A stretch of DNA of 64,000 bases from Acidobacteriaceae bacterium (GCA_019233755.1 JAFAMD010000055.1:1-64000); one strand, 5' to 3'; counted from the stretch's first letter, positions 5,446-39,040 are shown. Numbers and translations are program-made. The notes: generated from the letters alone by a model not told the origin.

Positions 5446-6528
5446 ATGAGCCGAGTTCACGACGCTTTACGCAAAGCCGCGCAAGAAAATCCTCAACCTG
5501 CGAAGCCGGCCGCTCGTATTCCGAAGGCGCCTCTGCTGGCCCCGGATGTTCTGGCCGCCTCGCCCGAAGTCCCTGCGCAGGAAAAAGCTCAGGAGGAAGC
5601 ACGGCAGCAGGGTGCAGCAGCGCAAGCCGGCTTCGAAGCTCGACCGGGCATCGAGACGCCTTCAGTAGAGGCGCCCCCAATCGAGACATCTCCCACGATC
5701 ACCCGAAGCGCCCCGCTGTTCGATACGGTCGCCGACCTGGAGTGCCTGGAGGAGTTCATCCTCGATGCGAGACAGGTTGCGTTCGATCCGCTGCCGGAAG
5801 CCCTCCTGATGAATCCCGCCCGGCCGCGGGCGACCCCTGCAGAGGAATTCCGGAGCTTGCGGACCCGGCTGAACCACCTGCAGACGATTCAGCCGCTTCA
5901 TACGCTGGTAGTCACAAGCCCATCGCCGGCCGAGGGCAAGTCCTTCACGGCCATGAACCTGGCCGTGGCACAGGCCCAACTGGCGGAAAAACGGGTGCTG
6001 CTCGCCGACTTCGATTTCCGACGTCCGACAATCGATAATACCTTCCGCCTGGCGGGCCAACCCGGGCTGACCGATTACCTGGAAGGCAAGGTTCGCATTA
6101 GCGACATCATCAACAAAGTCGGTGATACCAGTTTCTACGTGATGCCCGCGGGCAGCCCCGTGCCGAATCCCTTGGAGCTCTTAAACCTCAGGGAATGTCG
6201 CGCCCTGGTTGAAGCGCTTCGCAGCCACTTTGACTGGATCATATTCGACACGCCGCCTTTGCTTTTCGCTGCCGACGCGAATCTGCTTGCCACCATGGCC
6301 GACGGAACGATTTTGGTTGTCCGTATTGGAGCAACCACTTTTGAATCAGTCAGTCGTGCGATGCACTCCCTCTGTGAAAACAACATTTTGGGCGTTGTTG
6401 TGAACGGTGCGCGGCGCAGTGAGCTTTACAGCAAATACAGCTACTACCATGACTACTACTATTCGGAGCCGGAGCCGGAAAAAGCCGAGCCGCCTGCCTC
6501 CGATGATGTTGTAGTTGCCCACAAATAG
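5446..6528 (+). CDS. CpsD/CapB-type BY-kinase (tyrosine autokinase)
   Basis: A 360-residue cytoplasmic tyrosine kinase that cycles phosphorylation to control polysaccharide polymerisation. It begins MSRVHDALRKA, the N-terminus usual in EPS-associated kinases of exosortase-bearing bacteria. A low-complexity Ala/Pro/Glu stretch (residues 15-85) follows, then the P-loop ATPase fold: Walker A SPSPAEGKSF, Walker A' LLADFDFRRP and Walker B IIFDTPPLL. The C-terminal tyrosine cluster YSKYSYYHDYYY holds eight Tyr in about 15 residues and is the expected autophosphorylation tail. The gene starts four bases after the Wzc-like gene, so the two form a split Wzc. Confidence 0.88.
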   Translation: MSRVHDALRKAAQENPQPAKPAARIPKAPLLAPDVLAASPEVPAQEKAQEEARQQGAAAQAGFEARPGIETPSVEAPPIETSPTITRSAPLFDTVADLECLEEFILDARQVAFDPLPEALLMNPARPRATPAEEFRSLRTRLNHLQTIQPLHTLVVTSPSPAEGKSFTAMNLAVAQAQLAEKRVLLADFDFRRPTIDNTFRLAGQPGLTDYLEGKVRISDIINKVGDTSFYVMPAGSPVPNPLELLNLRECRALVEALRSHFDWIIFDTPPLLFAADANLLATMADGTILVVRIGATTFESVSRAMHSLCENNILGVVVNGARRSELYSKYSYYHDYYYSEPEPEKAEPPASDDVVVAHK

Positions 6529-6619
6529 CCCTTTCGAATCGGCGGCGTCTTCTCCTGCATCAAGGTAAGTGGGCCCCCGTCCGCGGAAGGCCCGGCAAAT
6601 CCTGTTCCGGGAGCAATTC

Positions 6620-7258
6620 TTGAGTATAGAAACGCAACATGCCGATGTGTCCGATTGGTTTTCTAAGAAAACTGCCGACGTCCCTCCGGCGGTGCACGAC
6701 CTCGTGCGCCAGCGCTGGAGCCCGCGCGCATTCTCTGACGAGCCAGTCTCGGATGCGGACCTCAAGACCGTTCTCGATGCCGCGCGGTGGGCTGCGTCCT
6801 CCTACAATGAACAGCCCTGGCGGTTCATTCTCGCCCGGAAATCCGAGGGCGCTGATTACGACAAGATGCTGAACCTGCTTGTGCCGGGTAATCAGGCGTG
6901 GGCGAAGAATGCACCGGTACTGATTATTACTGCAGCAAAACGAACCTTTTCGCACAACGGGAGTCCGAATTTCCATGCGGCACATGACGCCGGCGCCGCC
7001 TGGGCGCATCTCGCTCTGCAGGCAACCGCGTTAGGTCTGTACGCGCACGGCATGGCGGGTTTCGATCGGGAACGCGCTCGCAAGGAACTCGGAGTTCCTG
7101 ATGATTACGAGGTGGTAACAGCCATTGCTCTTGGCCATCTCGGCTCACCGGAAGCTCTTCCCGATGCCGTTCGCGAGCGGGAACTGGCCCAGCGCCAGCG
7201 TAAGCCGCTAAGCGAACTCGTTTTCAAAGGGCATTGGGACAAACCGCTGCAGTTCTAG
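6620..7258 (+). CDS. Nitroreductase-family FMN oxidoreductase
   Basis: About 212 residues of the NADPH/FMN nitroreductase fold. The RQRWSPRAFSDEPV segment carries the FMN phosphate-binding arginines, and AARWAASSYNEQPWRFI is the family's N-Q-P-W motif. The start is set at TTG 6620 because GGGAG lies at 6609-6613, six bases upstream. The open frame extends to a GTG at 6569, but the extra 17 residues resemble nothing in the family. Substrate is unknown: family members reduce nitroaromatics, quinones or enones, or act in cofactor metabolism. It ends 12 bases before the convergent Smr gene. Confidence 0.85.
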   Translation: MSIETQHADVSDWFSKKTADVPPAVHDLVRQRWSPRAFSDEPVSDADLKTVLDAARWAASSYNEQPWRFILARKSEGADYDKMLNLLVPGNQAWAKNAPVLIITAAKRTFSHNGSPNFHAAHDAGAAWAHLALQATALGLYAHGMAGFDRERARKELGVPDDYEVVTAIALGHLGSPEALPDAVRERELAQRQRKPLSELVFKGHWDKPLQF

Positions 7259-16639: not shown

Positions 16640-19600
16640 ATGGCAAAATCACCCCAATGCAAGATCCGCGTCTTTATCAGCTATTCGTCTGAGAACGTTG
16701 AGCAGGCGAGAGCGATCCATGCAGCGCTCGAGACCGAAGGGTTTGAGGTCTGGCGCGATGAGAGGCGCATCGAAACCGACTGGTCGGCCGATATTGCAGA
16801 GGCGCTCGCACACTCGGACGTGATCTGCCTGATTTGGACGAAGGCTGCAGCAGGCTCTGGCTGGGTAAAGAACGAATGGCTCAGCGCACGTGCACTGGAA
16901 AAACTGATTGTTCCTTGTCTGTTTCCAGGCGCACCAGATCTCCCGAAGCCGATTGAGAACCTGCAGGGAGTCAAATTTTCGAAAACTCCAGTGGGTTTGC
17001 GTGACCTGACGGCACGTCTGAAATCTTCGGCATCATTTCACAAAAAATACGATTTCCGGGTTTTCCCGCCCAATGGCCATGTACATGTACCGTTTGCTCC
17101 AGACGATGATTTCACCGGCCGAAACGACGATTTACTAGCCCTCTATCTCGAACTGATCGGGCAGTTAAACAAAATCGGAATCAGTCACGTGGGAGCGGCA
17201 GGGATGGGGGGTGTCGGAAAGACTGCGCTGGCCGTCGAGTTTGCATATCGCTTCGCATTCGCCTTCGATGGCGTGTATTGGATCCAGGCAGCGGATTCAA
17301 GCCAGTTAAGCGCGGAGTTGGTATGGCTAGCTCGGGATATCCTGCGGCTCAAGATTGCCACTCCTAAGAACGCCGATGCAAACAGCCAATATCTGCGTGA
17401 ACTGTATTCGCACTCGAAGAAACACCCGCAGATGCTCTTGATTCTGGACAATCTTGGGGAGCCAGAACTGCTCGCAAGCGCTGCTATACTCCCGGGCGTC
17501 CATTTTGCGCCTCTCGACTTAGGGTGCAACCTGCTGTTCACTACGCGGAGACAGTTTAAGTTAACGGGAGTAAAGGCGCACCCGGTCGATGTTCTGTCCC
17601 CACATGCAGCCCTCGATCTTCTGGCTCGGTCACGGCGTCCGGAGACGGGTGATGATCGGGGGAAAGCAGAAGAGATCTGCAATGCTGTCGGTTATCTGCC
17701 TCTCGCGCTGGTTTTGATTGGCGCCTACCTGAGGAATTATGCCGAGATCTCGTTCGGGCGCTATCTCACCATGCTCCGTAAACACGGGCTGGCTGCGATC
17801 GATACGACAAGGATTGACGCCAGCAGCCTGGCAACGCGGCACGCCGCCGCAGTCGGAGTGACTCTTCAGGGCCAGTGGAAGGTGGTACGGGATCCGAATG
17901 CCCGGCTTGTCCTGAAGATCGCTGCACATTTTTCGGAGAGTGCCATCGTGCCCAGGAACCGGATCGGATTGCTAGCGGGTTTGGGTGCGGGCAGGACCGA
18001 AATGGATTTGCCGCTGGCAAGCGCGATTAAAGTGCTGCAGCGCCTGAGCCTTATTCAGGAAGTTGAGAACGGTACGGCAGTTCGTATTCATCCTCTGGTT
18101 GCCAAATTTGTGCGCGGAGCCGTCGCGGAGCGAGTGCGCTCCCATTTCCTATTCGCGGCAGCCGCAAAACTGAAAGCCGCGTACGACGATCCATCTCGTC
18201 TGGAATCCGAGTATCGGCATCGCGGCATCAACCAGGTCATCGGCGATCTGAATGCCGCAATCCCGTGGGCAAGCGGGCGTGCGCCGGTTGAGCGAAAGCT
18301 GTCTTTGTTGCAGCGCGTCTTAGACCGCGAGCGGCAGCATTTACAGTCTCCGCACCCTGAAGCTCAGGAGTTAGCCCCCAATTTCTTCCAGCAGCTACAT
18401 CATCGCGCCTCCATGATGGGGTTGCCAGAGCTTGCCGCAAAGTTTCTTCAAGCCGGATTGGCTGACGGACGGCCGATGCTCTCGGTTCAAGCGAGCAGTG
18501 CCATGGAAGATCCAGCCCGGGTCCGCACTCTCCAGGGCCACTCCATTGCCCTCAAGGCTCTGGGAGTGAGCAGTGACGGCCATCGCCTGATCTCAGCATC
18601 GATGGATCGCCGGATGATCTTGTGGGACCTGGAAACAGGCCAGATGTTGCGGTCGATGAAGGGTCACAAATATCCGATTCTGGATGTGGCGATTTCTCCG
18701 GACGGGCGCAGTGCGCTGAGCGGAGGTCGGGATAAGAAGCTGATCTTCTGGAACCTCGAAACCGGCGAAAAGCTATGGACCAGGCGGGAACACTCCGGCA
18801 CGATCGAATTTGTGAAATTCAGTGCCGATGGCCGCATGGCTTTGACCGGATCGCTGGATGAGACCCTGATTTGCTGGGACGTATCTTCGGGACGCAAGAT
18901 CTCACGCCTGAAAGGTCACAAGCATGGAGTTGTCGCCGGAGCGATGAGCCGGGACAGCCGTTACGCCCTTTCTGGAGATACCGAAGGTCACATCTTCTTC
19001 TGGGACCTGAAAAAGGCGTCCAGTGTTTACAGCTTCCATATTGATCCGCCTGCCGACAACATCAAACGAGGCATCACCGCCCTTGACCTCACTCCGGACG
19101 CTAAATTTGCAGTAATCGCTACCGGCTATAAGAATCGCTACCTGGTCGACTATTTCGGACCTGATCGTAACAGCCGATTGCTTCTGTGGAACCTCGAGGC
19201 CAGGCGCTTCGTTCGCGAATTCGAGGGCCACACCTTGCCCGTGAACGGCGTCGCATTCAGCAGCGACGGCAGACGGGTATTGAGCGGATCGTCAGACAAG
19301 ACCCTGAAACTCTGGCACGCGACGACAGGAAAGTGCCAGCGCACCTTTGTCGGGCATTCACGGGAAATACAAGCAGTCGTTCTTACCCTTGATGATCGCT
19401 ACGCCATAAGCGCAGGATTCGAAGGGAACGCCATTGTATGGGAGATGGATGCGGCGGACCAGGCCGAGCCCTCCAGCCGTCGTCGCACCCAATCCGCCGG
19501 ACATTCACTTTGGGTGAGGTCCGTCGATCTCAGTGCGGACGGAACGATCGCCGCTACAAGTTCCGACGACGCCACGGTCGCGTTATGGAACGCAAAAACA

Positions 19601-20479
19601 GGACGCTTGTTGCATTTCTTGCAGGGGCACTCGGAACGTGTTAACAGCGTGAAACTCACCGCCGATGCCTCGCTCGCTGTAAGTGCCGATCATCACGGGA
19701 CCATCATGCTCTGGAACGCAAAGACTGGCAAGCAAATATCCGCCATCGAAACGAAAAGAGGGCGAATCCATGCCGTCAACGCTTCCCCGGATGGACGAAC
19801 CGCGCTCTCCGGCGATTTGGGTAACTGGCTCATGGTCTGGGATGTTGAGAAAGGCGAACTGCTTCAGCCTTTCCAACATGTCCGCGATTTTGTTGACGAG
19901 GACTCGGATGGAATTACCGCAATCCTGTTGAGCAACGACGGCCGAACAGCAATCACTGCCGCGGAAGATAGTACAAAGCTGTTCCTTTGGAACCTCGCGC
20001 TGGTAACGGAGTTCCGGACCCAGATTCTCGCGGCGAACCCAAGCGAGCGGATTTTTCTTCAGGAACAGCTTGAGGAGGCGATCGCCACGCTGAAGGGGCA
20101 TTCTTCGGGCGTGCTGGCTCTCGATTATGACGGCCGGAACGCCCGGCTCTTGAGTGGATCGAGCGACCACACGGTCATCCTTTGGGACCTTAAGAAGAAA
20201 TGCCCGCTAATGCGCCTCGAAGGTCATTCGCAAATTGTGAATGCGGTCGGACTCGCAAACGCACAACGTGCGGTCAGCGCGTCCTGGGACAAGACGCTTA
20301 TTCTCTGGAACCTCGATTCAGGGAAACCGCTGCTCCAGTTGTATCTGGAAAACCCGGTGTGGGCTCTCGCGGCGCGCGGCCATCAAATGGTTGCGGGCGA
20401 TGTAGGCGGGATTGTTTATTTCTTCGCGATCAAGGAACCGAACACAAAGAAGACTCGCAACACGAAGCCGGCCCAATGA
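16640..20479 (+). CDS. TIR / NB-ARC (STAND ATPase) / double WD40-propeller protein
   Basis: A 1279-residue NLR-like protein. The TIR domain spans residues 8-125 (KIRVFISYSSENVEQA) with SGWVKNEW, whose Glu sits where NAD+-cleaving TIR domains keep their catalytic Glu. The STAND ATPase, about residues 160-450, has P-loop GMGGVGKT (188-195), Walker B LLILDNLGE, sensor LLFTTRR, and GxP motif GYLPLAL. A helical region follows (450-620). From about residue 627, 13 clear WD40 endings (MILWDLETG, LIFWNLETG, LKLWHATTG, VILWDLKKK) and one worn repeat suggest two seven-bladed propellers. The expected mechanism is that ligand binding by the propellers triggers oligomerisation and TIR activation. This architecture is typical of predicted conflict or immune proteins in developmentally complex bacteria. 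No export signal is seen. Confidence 0.9.
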   Translation: MAKSPQCKIRVFISYSSENVEQARAIHAALETEGFEVWRDERRIETDWSADIAEALAHSDVICLIWTKAAAGSGWVKNEWLSARALEKLIVPCLFPGAPDLPKPIENLQGVKFSKTPVGLRDLTARLKSSASFHKKYDFRVFPPNGHVHVPFAPDDDFTGRNDDLLALYLELIGQLNKIGISHVGAAGMGGVGKTALAVEFAYRFAFAFDGVYWIQAADSSQLSAELVWLARDILRLKIATPKNADANSQYLRELYSHSKKHPQMLLILDNLGEPELLASAAILPGVHFAPLDLGCNLLFTTRRQFKLTGVKAHPVDVLSPHAALDLLARSRRPETGDDRGKAEEICNAVGYLPLALVLIGAYLRNYAEISFGRYLTMLRKHGLAAIDTTRIDASSLATRHAAAVGVTLQGQWKVVRDPNARLVLKIAAHFSESAIVPRNRIGLLAGLGAGRTEMDLPLASAIKVLQRLSLIQEVENGTAVRIHPLVAKFVRGAVAERVRSHFLFAAAAKLKAAYDDPSRLESEYRHRGINQVIGDLNAAIPWASGRAPVERKLSLLQRVLDRERQHLQSPHPEAQELAPNFFQQLHHRASMMGLPELAAKFLQAGLADGRPMLSVQASSAMEDPARVRTLQGHSIALKALGVSSDGHRLISASMDRRMILWDLETGQMLRSMKGHKYPILDVAISPDGRSALSGGRDKKLIFWNLETGEKLWTRREHSGTIEFVKFSADGRMALTGSLDETLICWDVSSGRKISRLKGHKHGVVAGAMSRDSRYALSGDTEGHIFFWDLKKASSVYSFHIDPPADNIKRGITALDLTPDAKFAVIATGYKNRYLVDYFGPDRNSRLLLWNLEARRFVREFEGHTLPVNGVAFSSDGRRVLSGSSDKTLKLWHATTGKCQRTFVGHSREIQAVVLTLDDRYAISAGFEGNAIVWEMDAADQAEPSSRRRTQSAGHSLWVRSVDLSADGTIAATSSDDATVALWNAKTGRLLHFLQGHSERVNSVKLTADASLAVSADHHGTIMLWNAKTGKQISAIETKRGRIHAVNASPDGRTALSGDLGNWLMVWDVEKGELLQPFQHVRDFVDEDSDGITAILLSNDGRTAITAAEDSTKLFLWNLALVTEFRTQILAANPSERIFLQEQLEEAIATLKGHSSGVLALDYDGRNARLLSGSSDHTVILWDLKKKCPLMRLEGHSQIVNAVGLANAQRAVSASWDKTLILWNLDSGKPLLQLYLENPVWALAARGHQMVAGDVGGIVYFFAIKEPNTKKTRNTKPAQ

Positions 20480-20561
20480 CCTTCTGCGGGCGCCTTCGGG
20501 GACTTGTTAATCCCGCCCGATCGTAGTTCAATAGTGCAGACCGCAGTCCTGAGGCAGAACT

Positions 20562-21968
20562 ATGAGCGGATTACAGGCTGTTTGTTTTATCGATATGCCG
20601 TTCGGCAAAAAGCCGGATCTGGCAAGCGGCGTCGAGGTTGATTTTGACCAGATTTATTCGTGCGCGATCGAGCCGGCGATTCATGCTGCGGGTCTCGAGC
20701 CGGTTCGCGGCGATCGTGAGCGCAGTGGCGGCATTATTCACGCGCCTATGTTCGGCAGGCTTCTTCTGTCGGACTTCGTTGTAGCTGACCTCACGCTTGG
20801 TAACCCGAACGTATTCTACGAACTCGGCATCCGGCACACCGCGCGCCCATTTACAACCGTACCCATCTTCGCGGCCATTCATTCTCTGCCGTTCGACGTG
20901 AGCCTCGTTCGAGCGATCCCCTATACCCTGGAGCAGGGTAAGCTCACAGACGCCGGAGCCGAGAAGCTTCGTTCCGATCTGCAGAGCCGCCTCGACGAAG
21001 CAATCCGCGGAGTGGCGGCCAAGGACAGCCCGCTTTTTCAGCTCATTCCCACGTTCCCGGCGATCAACCTGCCTCATGAAGTGACTGAGATTTTCCAGGA
21101 TCAGGTACGCCACTCCGAAGAGTTTCGAAACCGCCTGATAGAGGCGCGGGCCTGGACTTCCGATGCGGAAAGGTTGAAAGCCCTGCAGGAAATCGAGAAG
21201 AGTCTGGGCAATCTGAAGATCGCACAAGGCGAAGTGCTGGTGGATCTCATGCTTTCCTATCGCGATGTAAGCGCCTGGAACGATATGATCCGCCTGACGG
21301 ATGCGTTTCCGGACTACTTGAAGACCAACGTGATGGTTCGGCAGCAGCGCGCGATGGCTCTCAACCGCCGAAACAATGCCGCTGATCGCGAGCAGGCCGA
21401 ACGCATCCTCCAAAGCATTGTGAAGGAGAAAGGCTCCGACCCGGAGACCTTCGGTATTCTCGGCCGAACCTATAAGGATCGGTATAAGGAGTTGAAGGAC
21501 AAAGGCAGCGTGATGGCCTCGGCGGCGCTCGACTCTGCCATCGATGCTTATACAAGGGGTTTTGAAGCCGATCCGCGCGATTACTATCCTGGTGTGAATG
21601 CGATCACACTCTTGATAGAGAGGGGCGATGCAGAAAGCCTACACGAAGCTTCCCGGCTCCTTCCGCTGGTCAGTTTCGCCGTCGCACGCCGCGGGGCGGC
21701 TGCCTCGACTGATTATTGGGATCTGGCCACCGTTCTTGAACTCAGCGCAATTGGGAACGACTGGAAGCTGTTGGGCAGAGTGCTCCCAAAAGCCCTCGCA
21801 ACCGCCAAGGCTTCCTGGATGATCAAAACGACTTGGGACAATCTGCTGTTGCTGAAGGCTGCACGCGAGCGCGCCGGTCAGCCAACAGCCGAATTGGATA
21901 AGGCACTAGGACACTTCGAGCAGCGATACGGCGAGATGTGCGGACAAGAAGTGAAACCGCCGAGCTAG
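20562..21968 (+). CDS. Nucleoside-deoxyribosyltransferase-like domain fused to DUF4071 (ASK/MAP3K-type) TPR scaffold
   Basis: A 468-residue cytoplasmic protein in two parts. Residues 1-130 form a Rossmann-like nucleoside 2-deoxyribosyltransferase relative (VCFIDMPFGKK at the N-terminus, VVADLTLGNPNVFYELGIRH at 73-92). The NPNVFYELG box includes Glu87, the position of the catalytic glutamate in that superfamily. Residues 160-460 are alpha-helical TPRs matching DUF4071, the regulatory domain of animal ASK kinases (ILGRTYKDRYKEL, then AYTRGFEADP and GVNAITLL). From memory of comparative-genomics work, this scaffold is predicted to bind NAD+-derived signals and pairs with TIR effectors. It lies 82 bases after the TIR gene stop, with its own GAGG site seven bases before ATG. 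Confidence 0.78.
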   Translation: MSGLQAVCFIDMPFGKKPDLASGVEVDFDQIYSCAIEPAIHAAGLEPVRGDRERSGGIIHAPMFGRLLLSDFVVADLTLGNPNVFYELGIRHTARPFTTVPIFAAIHSLPFDVSLVRAIPYTLEQGKLTDAGAEKLRSDLQSRLDEAIRGVAAKDSPLFQLIPTFPAINLPHEVTEIFQDQVRHSEEFRNRLIEARAWTSDAERLKALQEIEKSLGNLKIAQGEVLVDLMLSYRDVSAWNDMIRLTDAFPDYLKTNVMVRQQRAMALNRRNNAADREQAERILQSIVKEKGSDPETFGILGRTYKDRYKELKDKGSVMASAALDSAIDAYTRGFEADPRDYYPGVNAITLLIERGDAESLHEASRLLPLVSFAVARRGAAASTDYWDLATVLELSAIGNDWKLLGRVLPKALATAKASWMIKTTWDNLLLLKAARERAGQPTAELDKALGHFEQRYGEMCGQEVKPPS

Positions 21969-21989: not shown

Positions 21990-23264
21990 TCATCGGCTGT
22001 GGATGAGCACAGCCGTTGTATCGTCCGTTCGTTCAGATCCATGGCCGAAGCGCTGCACTTGCTCGATCAATCCTTCCACGCACGCATCAGGTTGGAGGAA
22101 GTGTTCTATCAGGCGTGCCGGCCCATATTCCTCGTAGTGGAGGTTCATTGCTTCCGTGATGCCGTCCGTATAGAACAGCAACCGGGTGCCCGGATCGAGC
22201 TTTACGGTGTGCTCCGGGTACGAGGATGCGCCTAGCCCGAGCGGAAGACCGGTTTCGACGTCAAGGAATAAGCACTCGTGGTTGATCAGTAACGGGCGCG
22301 GATGCCCGGCGCTGGCCAGGGTGATTTCGCGCGAGCCGGCGTCCAGTACGCCGTAGATCATCGTGACAAACTTGCTTGGCGGAAAATCTTCCAACAGCAT
22401 CTGGTTCAGATGCATCAGCGTCTGGCCCGGTGAAGAATGAAGCTTCGCAGACGTGCGCAGGACCGCACGGGTGGCTGACATCAGCAGTGCCGCGGGCATG
22501 CCTTTGCCTGAAACGTCGGCGAGGACCACCCCGTAGCGCTGGTCGCCTAAATCGAAGAAATCAAACCAATCGCCCGCCACGGCGCCGGCCGGATGCCAGG
22601 CGGTTTCGAATGCAAAGCCCGGGACGAGGGGAACCGCGCGCATGAAGAGTGCCTGCTGGATGGCACGGGCTTCTTCCGCTTCACGCTGCATCCGTTCGCG
22701 TTCCTGGCGCTCACGTTGAAACAGCCGCGCGTTTTCTACGGCCACGGCGATATGCCCTGCCAGCCCTTGAAGTACCAGCAGTTGGTCGTCAGAAAAGGCG
22801 TTGGCCTGCTTGTGATCGACGCAGAAGACGCCAATTACCTCGCCGCCGACCTTGAGCGGAACAGTGACTTCCGACCGGGTGTCCGGCTCGCAGGCGATAT
22901 AGTACCGGTCCAGGCGAACGTCGGGGGCGTAGTGCATGCGCCCGGATGCGGCGACGTGACCGACCATCCCCTGACGGCCGATTTTCAGGCGACAACCTTT
23001 TTGGTTCTGCGTGCAGCCGCGAACGCTTTGGAGGACCATTTCGTCGGTTTCTGAATCACGCAGCCAGACGCCCACTTCGACGCAGCCAATGGCGGCGGCG
23101 AGATCGTTTACCACCCGATCGACAAGCGCGTCCAAGTCGAAGGTCGACGTGATGAGCTGCGCAGCTCGCTGTAGCTTCATCAGTACCTGAACGAGTTCGC
23201 AGGACGTATGAGGTTGCGAAGAAATCAGCGCGCGCGTGCCGATGCTACGCGCTAAGGTTGCCAT
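21990..23264 (-). CDS. GAF-domain PP2C/SpoIIE-type serine phosphatase (RsbU-like)
   Basis: A 424-residue soluble phosphatase, probably dephosphorylating an anti-anti-sigma factor. A GAF domain covers about residues 30-185 (STFDLDALVDRVVNDLA to GHIAVAVENARLF). A short coiled coil (RQERERMQREAEEARAIQQA) leads into the SpoIIE domain, with metal ligands in AGDWFDFF, VVLADVSGKGMPAALLM and LLFYTDGITEA. AAGGAGG precedes the ATG by five bases. It ends 21 bases from the convergent DUF4071 gene, which is not evidence of shared function. The signal sensed by GAF is unknown. Confidence 0.9.
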   Translation of the reverse strand: MATLARSIGTRALISSQPHTSCELVQVLMKLQRAAQLITSTFDLDALVDRVVNDLAAAIGCVEVGVWLRDSETDEMVLQSVRGCTQNQKGCRLKIGRQGMVGHVAASGRMHYAPDVRLDRYYIACEPDTRSEVTVPLKVGGEVIGVFCVDHKQANAFSDDQLLVLQGLAGHIAVAVENARLFQRERQERERMQREAEEARAIQQALFMRAVPLVPGFAFETAWHPAGAVAGDWFDFFDLGDQRYGVVLADVSGKGMPAALLMSATRAVLRTSAKLHSSPGQTLMHLNQMLLEDFPPSKFVTMIYGVLDAGSREITLASAGHPRPLLINHECLFLDVETGLPLGLGASSYPEHTVKLDPGTRLLFYTDGITEAMNLHYEEYGPARLIEHFLQPDACVEGLIEQVQRFGHGSERTDDTTAVLIHSR

Positions 23265-23386: not shown

Positions 23387-24001
23387 CTAGTTCCAGACCT
23401 TCTGGACCGGTACACCATTCCTGCACAACTCGCAGGAGGAGGAATCCTTGTAATACATCGCGTCCATTTTTGCGAGGTAAAACAACGGCAGTGAACCCAG
23501 GTCCTCGACGGTCGGGTTGGGCTGGTATACGGCAACCGCCAGGCCCACTATCTCCGCGCCGGAGGATTCTACCAGGGATTTAAGCTCCTTCAGCCGTCTT
23601 CCCGATCGCAGAATGTCATCGATTAACAGAACTTTCTCGCCCTTGGCGGGCTCCACGAATTGGCGGAAGCGCATAGACGACGTTTCCGGATCCTGCTCAG
23701 TCCAATAGACCTGGTGGGCACGCAGCGCCTCACAGACTCCGAAGGCGATCGGCAGGCCGCTGGTGGTAGCGCACACAATCGAGAGTTCTTTGATCATGGC
23801 TCTGATTTCGCTATCGCTCCGGAGGCGGCGGCTCAGGCCGACACTCAGCATTTTCGCGTATTGAAAGTACCGAAACGCGAGTGCGACCTGCAGGTATTCG
23901 TTCGCGTGCATGCCGTTCGGATACTCGAAGTGGCCGTCACGCAAGGCGCCTGTTTCTCGCAACATAGCTATGACTTCTTCATTTGTTGGTAGAAGATGCA
24001 T
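23387..24001 (-). CDS. Orotate-phosphoribosyltransferase-like type I PRTase
   Basis: A 204-residue enzyme of the type I phosphoribosyltransferase fold, starting at ATG 24001 (MHLLPTNEEVI). The PRPP loop is EKVLLIDDILRSGRRL, with the two acidic residues of the family. The HFEYPNGMHANEYLQVAL region resembles the substrate loop of orotate PRTases. The open frame extends upstream, but those residues overlap the next gene and are not protein-like. The C-terminus ends with CELCRNGVPVQKVWN, a Cys-x-x-Cys pair unusual for PyrE and of unknown role. Orotate, adenine or another base could be the substrate; no pyrimidine genes flank it. Confidence 0.72.
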   Translation of the reverse strand: MHLLPTNEEVIAMLRETGALRDGHFEYPNGMHANEYLQVALAFRYFQYAKMLSVGLSRRLRSDSEIRAMIKELSIVCATTSGLPIAFGVCEALRAHQVYWTEQDPETSSMRFRQFVEPAKGEKVLLIDDILRSGRRLKELKSLVESSGAEIVGLAVAVYQPNPTVEDLGSLPLFYLAKMDAMYYKDSSSCELCRNGVPVQKVWN

Positions 24002-36469: not shown

Positions 36470-37501
36470 CTAATTAAGGAAATAGGTACGATACAGCGTG
36501 TCGCGCTGTTTCGGAATAAAGCCTGCGTCGCGGATCAGGCGGCGGAGTTGCTCTTCGGTTGCACGATGATGCGTGCCCGCTGCAGAGACTACGTTCTCCT
36601 CGATCATGATACTGCCTACGTCGTTCCCGCCAAACCGCAGGCCGAGTTGGCAGACTTTGAGGCCCGGTGTCACCCAGGACGCTTGAATATTCTCAATGTT
36701 GTCCAGGTACACGCGGGACAGAGCCAGCATTTTGAGGTATTCCACCGCGGTGGCTTCCTGCTTTACGAACCGCCCGAGCGAGGTGTATTCGCGCTGGAAG
36801 AACCAGGGAATAAAAGCCGTGAACCCTCCGGTGTCCTCCTGAATCTGCCTGACGATCTCAAAGTGGTTCATGCGCTGCTCAATGGTTTCGCCGGTGCCGA
36901 ACATCATCGTTGCAGTGGTCCGCATGCCGAGCGAGTGGGCAACCCGGTGGGTATCGATCCATTCCTGGACTGAGCATTTCAGTCGGCTAATGCGATGCCG
37001 CACGGCGTCGTCGAGAATCTCCGCGCCCCCGCCCGGTATCGAATCGAGTCCTGAATCGCGCAGGCGCGCGATCGTGTCGCGAAGGCTCAGCCCGCTGACC
37101 TCGGCGATGTTGACAATCTCCGGAGCCGAGAAGCAATGGCACCAGATGTCGAAACGCGATTTGATCGTCCGCAGAAGATTCTCGTACCACTCGATCTTCA
37201 AATCGGGGTGCAAGCCGCCCTGCATCAGGATACCTGTGCCGCCGAGCGAGATAGTCTCCTGAATCTTGTCGAGGATCACTTCTGTAGGTAGGATGTAGCC
37301 CTCTTTGTGCCCGAGCGGGCGATAGAAGGCACAAAAGCTGCAATATTCGGTGCAGAAGTTGGTGTAGTTGATATTCCGGTCGATGATGTAGCTGACGATC
37401 CCATCCGGATGAAATCTTCGTCGGACGGCATCTGCCTCCATACCGATGCCGACGAGGTCATCGCTCTGGAACATCTCTATCGCTTGTTTCCGGGTGATCA
37501 T
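36470..37501 (-). CDS. mqnC: Cyclic dehypoxanthinyl futalosine synthase
   Basis: A radical-SAM enzyme of the futalosine route to menaquinone. The 343-residue product shows the C-x3-C-x2-C cluster motif (TEYCSFCAFY, first Cys in NFCTEYC), the MqnC-typical NINYTNFC entry and LMQGGLHPDLKIEWYE. GAGGGG lies six bases before ATG 37501. It is the last gene of the xseA-queC-queE-mqnA-mqnC run, nine bases after mqnA. With mqnA it shows that menaquinone is made by the futalosine pathway; the other steps are not in the window. Confidence 0.93.
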   Translation of the reverse strand: MITRKQAIEMFQSDDLVGIGMEADAVRRRFHPDGIVSYIIDRNINYTNFCTEYCSFCAFYRPLGHKEGYILPTEVILDKIQETISLGGTGILMQGGLHPDLKIEWYENLLRTIKSRFDIWCHCFSAPEIVNIAEVSGLSLRDTIARLRDSGLDSIPGGGAEILDDAVRHRISRLKCSVQEWIDTHRVAHSLGMRTTATMMFGTGETIEQRMNHFEIVRQIQEDTGGFTAFIPWFFQREYTSLGRFVKQEATAVEYLKMLALSRVYLDNIENIQASWVTPGLKVCQLGLRFGGNDVGSIMIEENVVSAAGTHHRATEEQLRRLIRDAGFIPKQRDTLYRTYFLN

Positions 37502-37510
37502 GTCTTCCCC

Positions 37511-38305
37511 TCAGGCTCGCTGGGCGAGAATAGGCCGCGCGAGATTTGCCAGCTCCAAAAAAGCTTCCAGACCGCGCTGTTCCGCGGCGCCGATTTCAAA
37601 CCGGATGTAGTCGCGCAGGTAACGTTCCGCGAGCCCCTGGGTTACCCGTCGTTTCGGATACTCGCTGTCGACTATTTCTCGCAGGTGCGCCTTACCGAAC
37701 TCATACGATGCGCGGGTGATGCGCTCGAGCTCGAATGCCGGTATGCCTGGTTTGCCGGCCCATACAGCAAACACCATCGGAAGCTGCGTGAGCGAGAACC
37801 ACTCGGCTCCCAGGTCGAGCCATGGCAGACCGGTTTCGTCCGGATCGATTTCAAGCGCAGAATCGCCGATGATAAGGGCCGCATCTGAGTGCGCGAGCAT
37901 GTCCTGCAAAACGGGCTTCGCTCGCGTGATAACCGGTTCCGCTCCGTACCGCTCGCGCAGGATGATTCTCGCCAGTTGCACCGAGGTTCTGGAGCCGAGA
38001 TCGGCGGCAAGCGTCTGAACTTGCCCCCAGGGAACGCGAGAAAACAGGAGAATACTGCGCACTGGCCCTAGGCATGTGATCCCGACGCCGGGCACGATTT
38101 CGAGACCCTGCCGGGCGCTTTCTGCTACCGGCACAAGGCCGATTTGAATGGTCCCCTCTTCCACCTGCTGGGCGCAAATGGACGGGATGGAGAAGCTGAG
38201 TTCGACCTCTTCTTTCTGGGGCCCGTGGAGCATACCCCACACTAGAGGGACCGTGTTGAGGTAACTAACCGCACCTACGCGAAACTTCGAATTAATATCT
38301 CGCAA
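37511..38305 (-). CDS. mqnA: Chorismate dehydratase (futalosine pathway)
   Basis: MqnA removes water from chorismate to give 3-enolpyruvyl-benzoate, the first futalosine-pathway step. The 264-residue sequence shows the periplasmic-binding-like fold of the family: KFRVGAVSYLNTVPLVWGM, the LVPVAESARQ segment and GDSALEIDPDE. The start is TTG 38305. It overlaps no neighbour and leads into mqnC after nine bases. The family also contains solute-binding proteins, but no signal peptide is present, and the adjacent mqnC supports the enzyme call. Confidence 0.9.
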   Translation of the reverse strand: MRDINSKFRVGAVSYLNTVPLVWGMLHGPQKEEVELSFSIPSICAQQVEEGTIQIGLVPVAESARQGLEIVPGVGITCLGPVRSILLFSRVPWGQVQTLAADLGSRTSVQLARIILRERYGAEPVITRAKPVLQDMLAHSDAALIIGDSALEIDPDETGLPWLDLGAEWFSLTQLPMVFAVWAGKPGIPAFELERITRASYEFGKAHLREIVDSEYPKRRVTQGLAERYLRDYIRFEIGAAEQRGLEAFLELANLARPILAQRA

Positions 38306-38356
38306 ATTTCAGTTTAGCCAAGACCTGCTCGTCAGGCTGGTGTGCGGCGCGGATCC

Positions 38357-39040
38357 TCAGACTCCGCGCCTGTCGCCCCAGAGATCGATATGTAACCGCG
38401 GACTGTACCGGTAGCCGGTGTTCTTGCAGATCTCCGCGAGCCAGAGAGATCTGTTCTGGAGCACGTCACGCTGCGTCCCCTCAGGCATGAGTACTACGCT
38501 TCCGCGCGGAGCATCGAGGGCGAGCCGAATTGCCTCGATCTCCTTGAGGTCTTCGGGCGACGAGACCACAAACTTCAGTTGATAGGGAAACTCAGCCGTC
38601 AATCTTCGGAGCACGTCCGGCTGATAGCGCAGCCGGTCATGCTGCGCGGCCCAGCGGCCTCCTTCGCGGTCATGCGGAGTAGAGTTGGAGAGTTTGGGAC
38701 TGATGCTCATCAGATCACAGGCAACGGGTGCATAGACTGTTCCTGCTGTTTCGATTGTGATGTGCAGGCCCGCTTCGCGCAGCGCCCAGGTAAGTGGTGC
38801 GATCTCGGGCGCGATCATCGGCTCGCCCCCCGTAACGACCGCGTGCGAAGCGGGGAAGGTCTGAACCGTTTCGAGGATTTGCTCGAGAGAGAGGTTCTCG
38901 CCTTCAGGATTCCAAGACGTGTACGGTGTGTCGCACCATTTGCAGCGCAGATTGCAGCCCGAGGTACGAACGAACACCGAGGGGACACCCAGCAGTACGC
39001 CTTCGCCCTGAATCGAATAGAAAATTTCGGAAATTTTCAC
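38357..39040 (-). CDS. queE: 7-carboxy-7-deazaguanine synthase
   Basis: A 227-residue radical-SAM enzyme of the preQ0/queuosine route, forming CDG from CPH4. The N-terminus EIFYSIQGEGVLLGVPSVFVR and the cysteines in GCNLRCKWCDTPY are diagnostic. The start is GTG 39040, six bases after the queC stop, so queC and queE are tightly linked. Downstream Tgt at 28.3 kb would use the product after further steps. QueD and FolE are not visible in the window. Confidence 0.92.
   Translation of the reverse strand: MKISEIFYSIQGEGVLLGVPSVFVRTSGCNLRCKWCDTPYTSWNPEGENLSLEQILETVQTFPASHAVVTGGEPMIAPEIAPLTWALREAGLHITIETAGTVYAPVACDLMSISPKLSNSTPHDREGGRWAAQHDRLRYQPDVLRRLTAEFPYQLKFVVSSPEDLKEIEAIRLALDAPRGSVVLMPEGTQRDVLQNRSLWLAEICKNTGYRYSPRLHIDLWGDRRGV

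Follow-up and report, generated by a model that had tools for sequence, protein, structure and literature searches.

A TIR-NB-ARC-WD40 receptor gene beside an ASK1-like TPR-S gene in an Acidobacteriaceae bacterium: a candidate two-gene suicide module

A TIR-STAND-TPR (TIR-NLR) protein from Escherichia coli P4-like satellites blocks phages in E. coli as a single protein (Rousset et al. 2022, PMC9122126). In Thoeris, an NAD+ derivative made by a TIR protein (ThsB) is read by a second protein with a SLOG or macro domain (ThsA) (PMC11204291, PMC9503650). In animals, Apaf-1 carries two WD40 propellers of 7 and 8 blades, 15 in total (PMC4445527), and the TBD-TPR half of ASK1 regulates the attached kinase (PMC10972558). 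Here we analyzed a 64,000-nucleotide stretch of an Acidobacteriaceae bacterium (GCA_019233755.1, JAFAMD010000055.1:1-64000; hereafter the window), in which a gene for a TIR-NB-ARC-WD40 protein (the receptor) is followed by a gene for a TPR-S protein resembling ASK1 (the partner).

We interpret the two genes as an NLR-type suicide module for abortive-infection-type defense, with a probability of about 0.58, and this defense is probably directed at viruses. The partner lies on the same strand as the receptor, after an 82-bp gap without a terminator, an operon-like position that supports this interpretation; it probably belongs to the same system. TIR-NLR proteins and TPR-S proteins are already known separately. 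To our knowledge, the literature searched contains no description of the combination seen here, in which an ASK1-like TPR-S gene accompanies a TIR-NB-ARC-WD40 receptor.

The receptor and its fourteen WD40 blades

The receptor open reading frame (ATG at 16640, stop at 20479) matched TIR_2, NB-ARC and WD40 (PF00400, E 1.4e-76, repeats from residue 629 onward), all far above chance (Table 1). The original prediction, made from the DNA alone, had read the same order and had seen in it an Apaf-1/NLR-like plan with a TIR effector in place of CARD; TIR_2 is indeed N-terminal, and no CARD was found there. The putative catalytic Glu that it placed in SGWVKNEW is Glu79; in an alignment of relatives, all TIR sequences that reach this column (35/35) have Glu there.

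Because the P-loop and the Walker B (LLILDN, from residue 266), RNBS-B-like (LLFTTRR, 298), GLPL-like (GYLPLAL, 351) and MHD-position (RIHPLV, 482-487) motifs are all present, the nucleotide-binding motifs are intact and the ATPase is probably active. The NB-ARC also matched NRC4 9cc8 (phmmer E 1.2e-6). The stretch between NB-ARC and propellers is a putative winged-helix/helical region, judging by its place in an Apaf-1-like order. An N-terminal TIR with the conserved Glu, an intact STAND module and a C-terminal repeat sensor place the receptor among TIR-NLR (TIR-STAND) proteins.

Counting by eye, we found 13 W[DNHE] endings and a degenerate last blade, a total of 14 that agrees with the original count. 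A repeat hidden Markov model (HMM) built from the receptor itself recovered 11 blades as regular and two others weakly, blade 5 (residues ~796-858) and blade 11 (~1076-1149), both of which carry insertions. AlphaFold2 was run on residues 601-1279 as a single sequence and gave a mean predicted local distance difference test score (pLDDT) of 51, mostly 60-86 in the first ring and mostly below 50 in the second, which was modelled poorly because the run included no relatives. Residues 634-935 of this model aligned to the seven-bladed WD40 domain 5yzv (VIA-align Z 36.0, root-mean-square deviation (rmsd) 2.3, 281 residues), and propeller 1 models as a closed seven-bladed ring. Because propeller 2 was modelled at low confidence, the 7+7 arrangement is taken from the repeat count, which predicts seven blades there. 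Of the proposed pair of seven-bladed rings, the first thus stands and the second is a matter of repeat count; the added phrase "as in Apaf-1" does not hold, since Apaf-1 has 7+8 (PMC4445527).

The architecture is not unique to the window. Two TIR-NB-ARC-WD40 proteins of the same family, at loci L097 (1137 residues) and L231 (1166 residues), each end in a degenerate blade that follows 13 regular ones, and all three proteins share AGDxGGxxY in the last blade. Because the count recurs in both, 14 blades is, on these sequences, a stable feature of the family. Pairwise identity between repeats averages 32% in the window array (range 19-49%) versus 69% in L097. Because the L097 and L231 repeats are far more alike than those of the window, the latter is an old array, which bears out the earlier remark that its repeats are mutually diverged. 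The 13 near-alike repeats of L097 (7569-10982) and L231 (7189-10686) are themselves arrays that were recently amplified or homogenized.

Table 1 Features of the receptor and partner genes (window coordinates)
Feature	Position	Strand	Evidence
Receptor gene, 1279 residues: TIR, NB-ARC, helical region, 14 WD40 blades	16640..20479	+	open reading frame, Pfam, repeat HMM
TIR domain, residues 11-115	16670..16984	+	TIR_2 PF13676, E 2.1e-20
Glu79, putative catalytic residue (in SGWVKNEW)	16874-16876	+	TIR alignment
NB-ARC ATPase core, residues 172-366	17153..17737	+	PF00931, E 2.4e-11
Walker A GMGGVGKT, residues 188-195	17201-17224	+	motif reading
Putative winged-helix/helical region linking NB-ARC to propellers	17738..18523	+	RIHPLV position; domain by position in Apaf-1-like architecture
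WD40 propeller 1, blades 1-7, residues 629-941	18524..19462	+	repeat HMM, AlphaFold2 segment, 5yzv match
WD40 propeller 2, predicted blades 8-14, residues 949-1270; last blade degenerate (AGDVGGIVYF)	19484..20449	+	repeat HMM
Intergenic gap, 82 bp, without terminator-like site	20480..20561	+	sequence scan
Partner gene, 468 residues: DrHyd-like domain and TPR-S/MAP3K_TRAF_bd helical array	20562..21968	+	PF13281 E 2.1e-48, PF20308 E 4.2e-24
DrHyd-like domain (nucleoside 2-deoxyribosyltransferase superfamily), motif ADLTxxNPNVFYELGxRH	20562..20936	+	invariant columns, Nuc_deoxyrib_tr matches, hhalign
Glu87, invariant, in DrHyd-like domain	20820-20822	+	alignment
TPR-S sensor repeats, residues 239-351	21276..21614	+	PF20308 E 4.2e-24

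The partner gene and its likeness to ASK1

The original prediction, right about the domain order and the conserved Glu and one blade short in its comparison with Apaf-1, had missed the adjoining ASK1-like gene. The partner matched human ASK1 (8qgy) in sequence (phmmer E 1.7e-17). Its AlphaFold2 model, built from 21 aligned sequences, has a mean pLDDT of 82, and its first four Foldseek matches are all ASK1 chains. VIA aligned the model to ASK1 5ulm over 269 residues (Z 21.6, rmsd 4.6) and residues 10-465 to residues 95-645 of the 8qgy chain (Z 21.0, rmsd 15.0); because of the latter rmsd, the partner domains match those of ASK1 but in another relative orientation. In the VIA table for the partner, the N-terminal domain has no separate rows, as TPR matches fill it. 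No kinase family match (Pfam) was found in the 468 residues, nor was a PH domain detected in the partner.

The N-terminal domain carries the invariant motif ADLTxxNxNVFYELGxRH. Nuc_deoxyrib_tr matched 12/21 partner-family sequences with E values no higher than 1, the best being 4e-6, and hhalign gave 96% against a Nuc_deoxyrib_tr protein. Because of these two results, we place the domain with the DrHyd/TIR/SLOG class, and Glu87 is likely the catalytic residue. In 2020, Burroughs and Aravind (cited in PMC8195603) reportedly predicted a conflict-system origin for the ASK signalosome and for TPR-S / "TRAFs-binding" proteins, and what TPR-S senses is still a matter of prediction. Members of the DrHyd/TIR/SLOG class have been described as nucleotide-processing domains (PMC9503650).

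That Glu87 is invariant within a nucleoside-deoxyribosyltransferase-type motif speaks for enzymatic activity, and the partner could then be an antitoxin-like brake, either degrading the TIR product through its DrHyd domain or restraining the TIR through its TPR helices, much as the TBD-TPR half of ASK1 regulates its kinase (PMC10972558). However, fusions of TPR-S to lipase-type effector domains also exist and better suit a signal reader, and most partner loci of the phylum lack any TIR neighbor. We regard a brake as improbable.

A GAF-SpoIIE phosphatase gene (21990-23264, minus strand) lies downstream, convergent with the partner. Its candidacy as a third member is unsupported, as it is on the opposite strand and not conserved. 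At locus L053, an upstream SpoIIE gene (6003-7157) overlaps the start of the partner homologue. Given these two loci, a link between the phosphatase and the partner family is possible, if weak.

Proposed mechanism and linkage of TIR and TPR-S genes

If receptor and partner form one suicide module, the two WD40 propellers would hold NB-ARC closed and keep the receptor off until a trigger, probably phage-derived or a damage signal, binds them. The NB-ARC switch would then exchange nucleotide and the receptor oligomerize, aligning the TIR domains for NAD+ cleavage. NAD+ loss or an ADP-ribose-type product would lead to cell arrest or death, and the DrHyd-TPR-S partner may bind or process the TIR product and pass on or tune the response. 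Throughout this scheme, we infer the NADase activity, the oligomerization, the nature of the trigger, the product that TPR-S would read and the effect on phage. The receptor half is supported by analogy with the validated TIR-STAND-TPR anti-phage protein (PMC9122126). The partner half would follow from the linkage, the 2020 prediction for TPR-S and the likeness to ASK1. In a bolder version, which we offer only tentatively and consider somewhat doubtful, the TIR-NB-ARC-WD40 protein would be a "bacterial apoptosome" that has the ASK1-type sensor (DrHyd-TPR-S without a kinase) as its dedicated reader. The DrHyd Glu would act on the TIR product, and Apaf-1-like and ASK1-like parts of animal cell death would thus already be joined in one bacterial pathway.

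For partner homologues of full length, which carry TPR-S, we tallied the TIR genes lying no more than about 2 kb away. A TIR neighbor was present at 15/16 plasmid and viral-contig loci; the plasmid sample was hand-chosen from search matches and includes related loci. The proportion was 5/34 in the window's phylum (window included) and 0/33 among relatives that have only the N-terminal domain and lack TPR-S (pooled Fisher p 6e-6). Several of the loci stop at contig edges. Other neighbors of partner homologues are conflict-type genes as well, encoding SLATT membrane effectors/pores, a macro domain, SIR2-TIR and PfkB kinases. On a plasmid of Rhodococcus sp. JS3073 (NZ_CP113952.1, L132:4461-12066), we found an unannotated array of TIR-nSTAND1-TM-14xWD40, DrHyd-TPR-S and SLOG-patatin genes, the last two overlapping. 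This operon, the most informative case, repeats the window pair with a different STAND clade, and its additional lipase would be turned on by the signal; from its gene content, it would make a complete set of sensor, reader and lipase. At L171, a TIR-NB-ARC-APAF1-like gene lies near a partner homologue.

Several results weigh against joint action. Without the window, the phylum's 4/33 loci compared with the 11 TPR-S-lacking relatives there is not significant (Fisher p 0.30), although 4/33 is still more than the roughly 0.5-2.6% per locus expected by chance. The nearest partner orthologues, at L155 (73% identity), L156 (71%) and L157 (67%), have no adjoining TIR or STAND gene, and a TPR-S gene is absent from the surroundings of L097 and L231. 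Because of this, the window pair may be chance neighbors, neither gene needing the other in this family. Lastly, we rejected a defense island around the pair, as the flanking genes are housekeeping genes.

These absences favor a receptor that works alone, sensing, oligomerizing and depleting NAD+ by itself beside an independent ASK1-like gene that elsewhere has lipase-type partners. A validated single-gene TIR-STAND-TPR system exists, and L155 and L156 pair the partner orthologue with an alpha/beta-hydrolase-TPR-S gene instead. Against it stand the operon-like position of the partner, the independent TIR-STAND-WD40 and TPR-S operon on the Rhodococcus plasmid, and the general TIR/TPR-S linkage. 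We consider a lone receptor rather unlikely, though likelier than the other alternatives to the two-gene module.

The two genes are accessory parts that are seldom combined in this way. Searching 399 genomes of the class yielded no orthologue of the receptor (the closest matches share about 27-35% identity), nor did a full-length search of relatives (only two candidates scored per genome) or a WD40-only one, and scanning genome contigs with the receptor gave a single distant TIR match. The nearest class relatives of its TIR-NB-ARC part are mostly TIR-NB-ARC proteins without WD40. A plasmid tblastn with TIR-NB-ARC returned no match at 1e-20 and, at 1e-6, distant NB-ARC matches alone, mostly annotated as TPR proteins. 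The WD40 part had no match in a viral scan. This accessory, patchy distribution, the conserved catalytic Glu and the location of relatives, alongside known conflict domains, on plasmids and viral contigs all speak against a developmental or stress-signaling scaffold in which TIR and WD40 serve protein contacts only. The housekeeping setting, free of a defense island, would suit such a scaffold, which we consider very improbable.

Genes that fuse TPR-S to an alpha/beta-hydrolase (L155:6709-8298, L156:8722-10311, L171:7728-9176) or to patatin (L086:4684-7260) adjoin DrHyd-TPR-S genes, which suggests that TPR-S is a signal-reading module common to lipase effectors. The TIR-NB-ARC-APAF1-like protein of L171 (196-5211, 1671 residues) has winged-helix/helical regions and a C-terminal half without a Pfam match at 0.01. 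On rhizobial plasmids (L073, L074, L080), a conserved block of 7-cyano-7-deazaguanine synthase, DNA lyase, TIR and PfkB kinase genes is divergent from the TRAFs-binding gene and accompanied by SLATT or macro-domain genes; it looks like a larger nucleotide-signaling defense locus.

A foreign origin by base composition was rejected, as G+C is 56-57% in both genes, in line with the window. In the comparison for an empty site, a syntenic conserved block ended at 23387, with everything to its left variable in relatives. Farther away (36470-39040, minus strand), a radical SAM (CofH/MqnC-type) gene, a VitK2_biosynth gene and a second radical SAM gene stand together; these look like ordinary futalosine-pathway menaquinone genes.

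Comparison with known systems

Joint action of the two genes would mean that a single bacterial immune pathway employs relatives of Apaf-1 and ASK1, two separate regulators of animal cell death. It would make the proposal that the ASK signalosome arose in conflict systems directly testable in E. coli and would help to identify what TPR-S senses. The receptor would also offer a simple two-propeller NLR for study.

The pair resembles Thoeris in concept, in that a second protein would read an NAD+ derivative produced by a TIR. Membership was rejected, as no ThsA-type effector (SIR2-SLOG or TM-macro) is present beside the pair, among the annotated genes of about 12.6-25.4 kb. Matches to ThsB and Thoeris III were weak, limited to the TIR part and far below the cut-off. 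The receptor is closer to the TIR-STAND-TPR anti-phage protein, with an N-terminal TIR, a central STAND NTPase and C-terminal repeats in one protein. It differs in that its sensor consists of 14 WD40 blades rather than TPRs, an ASK1-like gene lies downstream, and the anti-phage role of the window protein is putative.

Like Apaf-1, the receptor has an N-terminal effector-linked domain and an NB-ARC followed by two WD40 propellers, the second of them predicted from the repeat count. Foldseek matched its WD40 part to Apaf-1 3sfz at E 4.8e-30, a strong blade similarity that is generic to WD40. Unlike Apaf-1, it has a TIR instead of CARD and 14 blades, probably 7+7 rather than 7+8, and a cytochrome c logic is not implied. 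The partner, in turn, resembles the N-terminal half of ASK1 in having a TBD-like domain followed by a TPR central region. It differs from the ASK kinases in lacking the kinase, in the DrHyd-type invariant Glu of its bacterial domain, and in adjoining a TIR-NB-ARC-WD40 gene.

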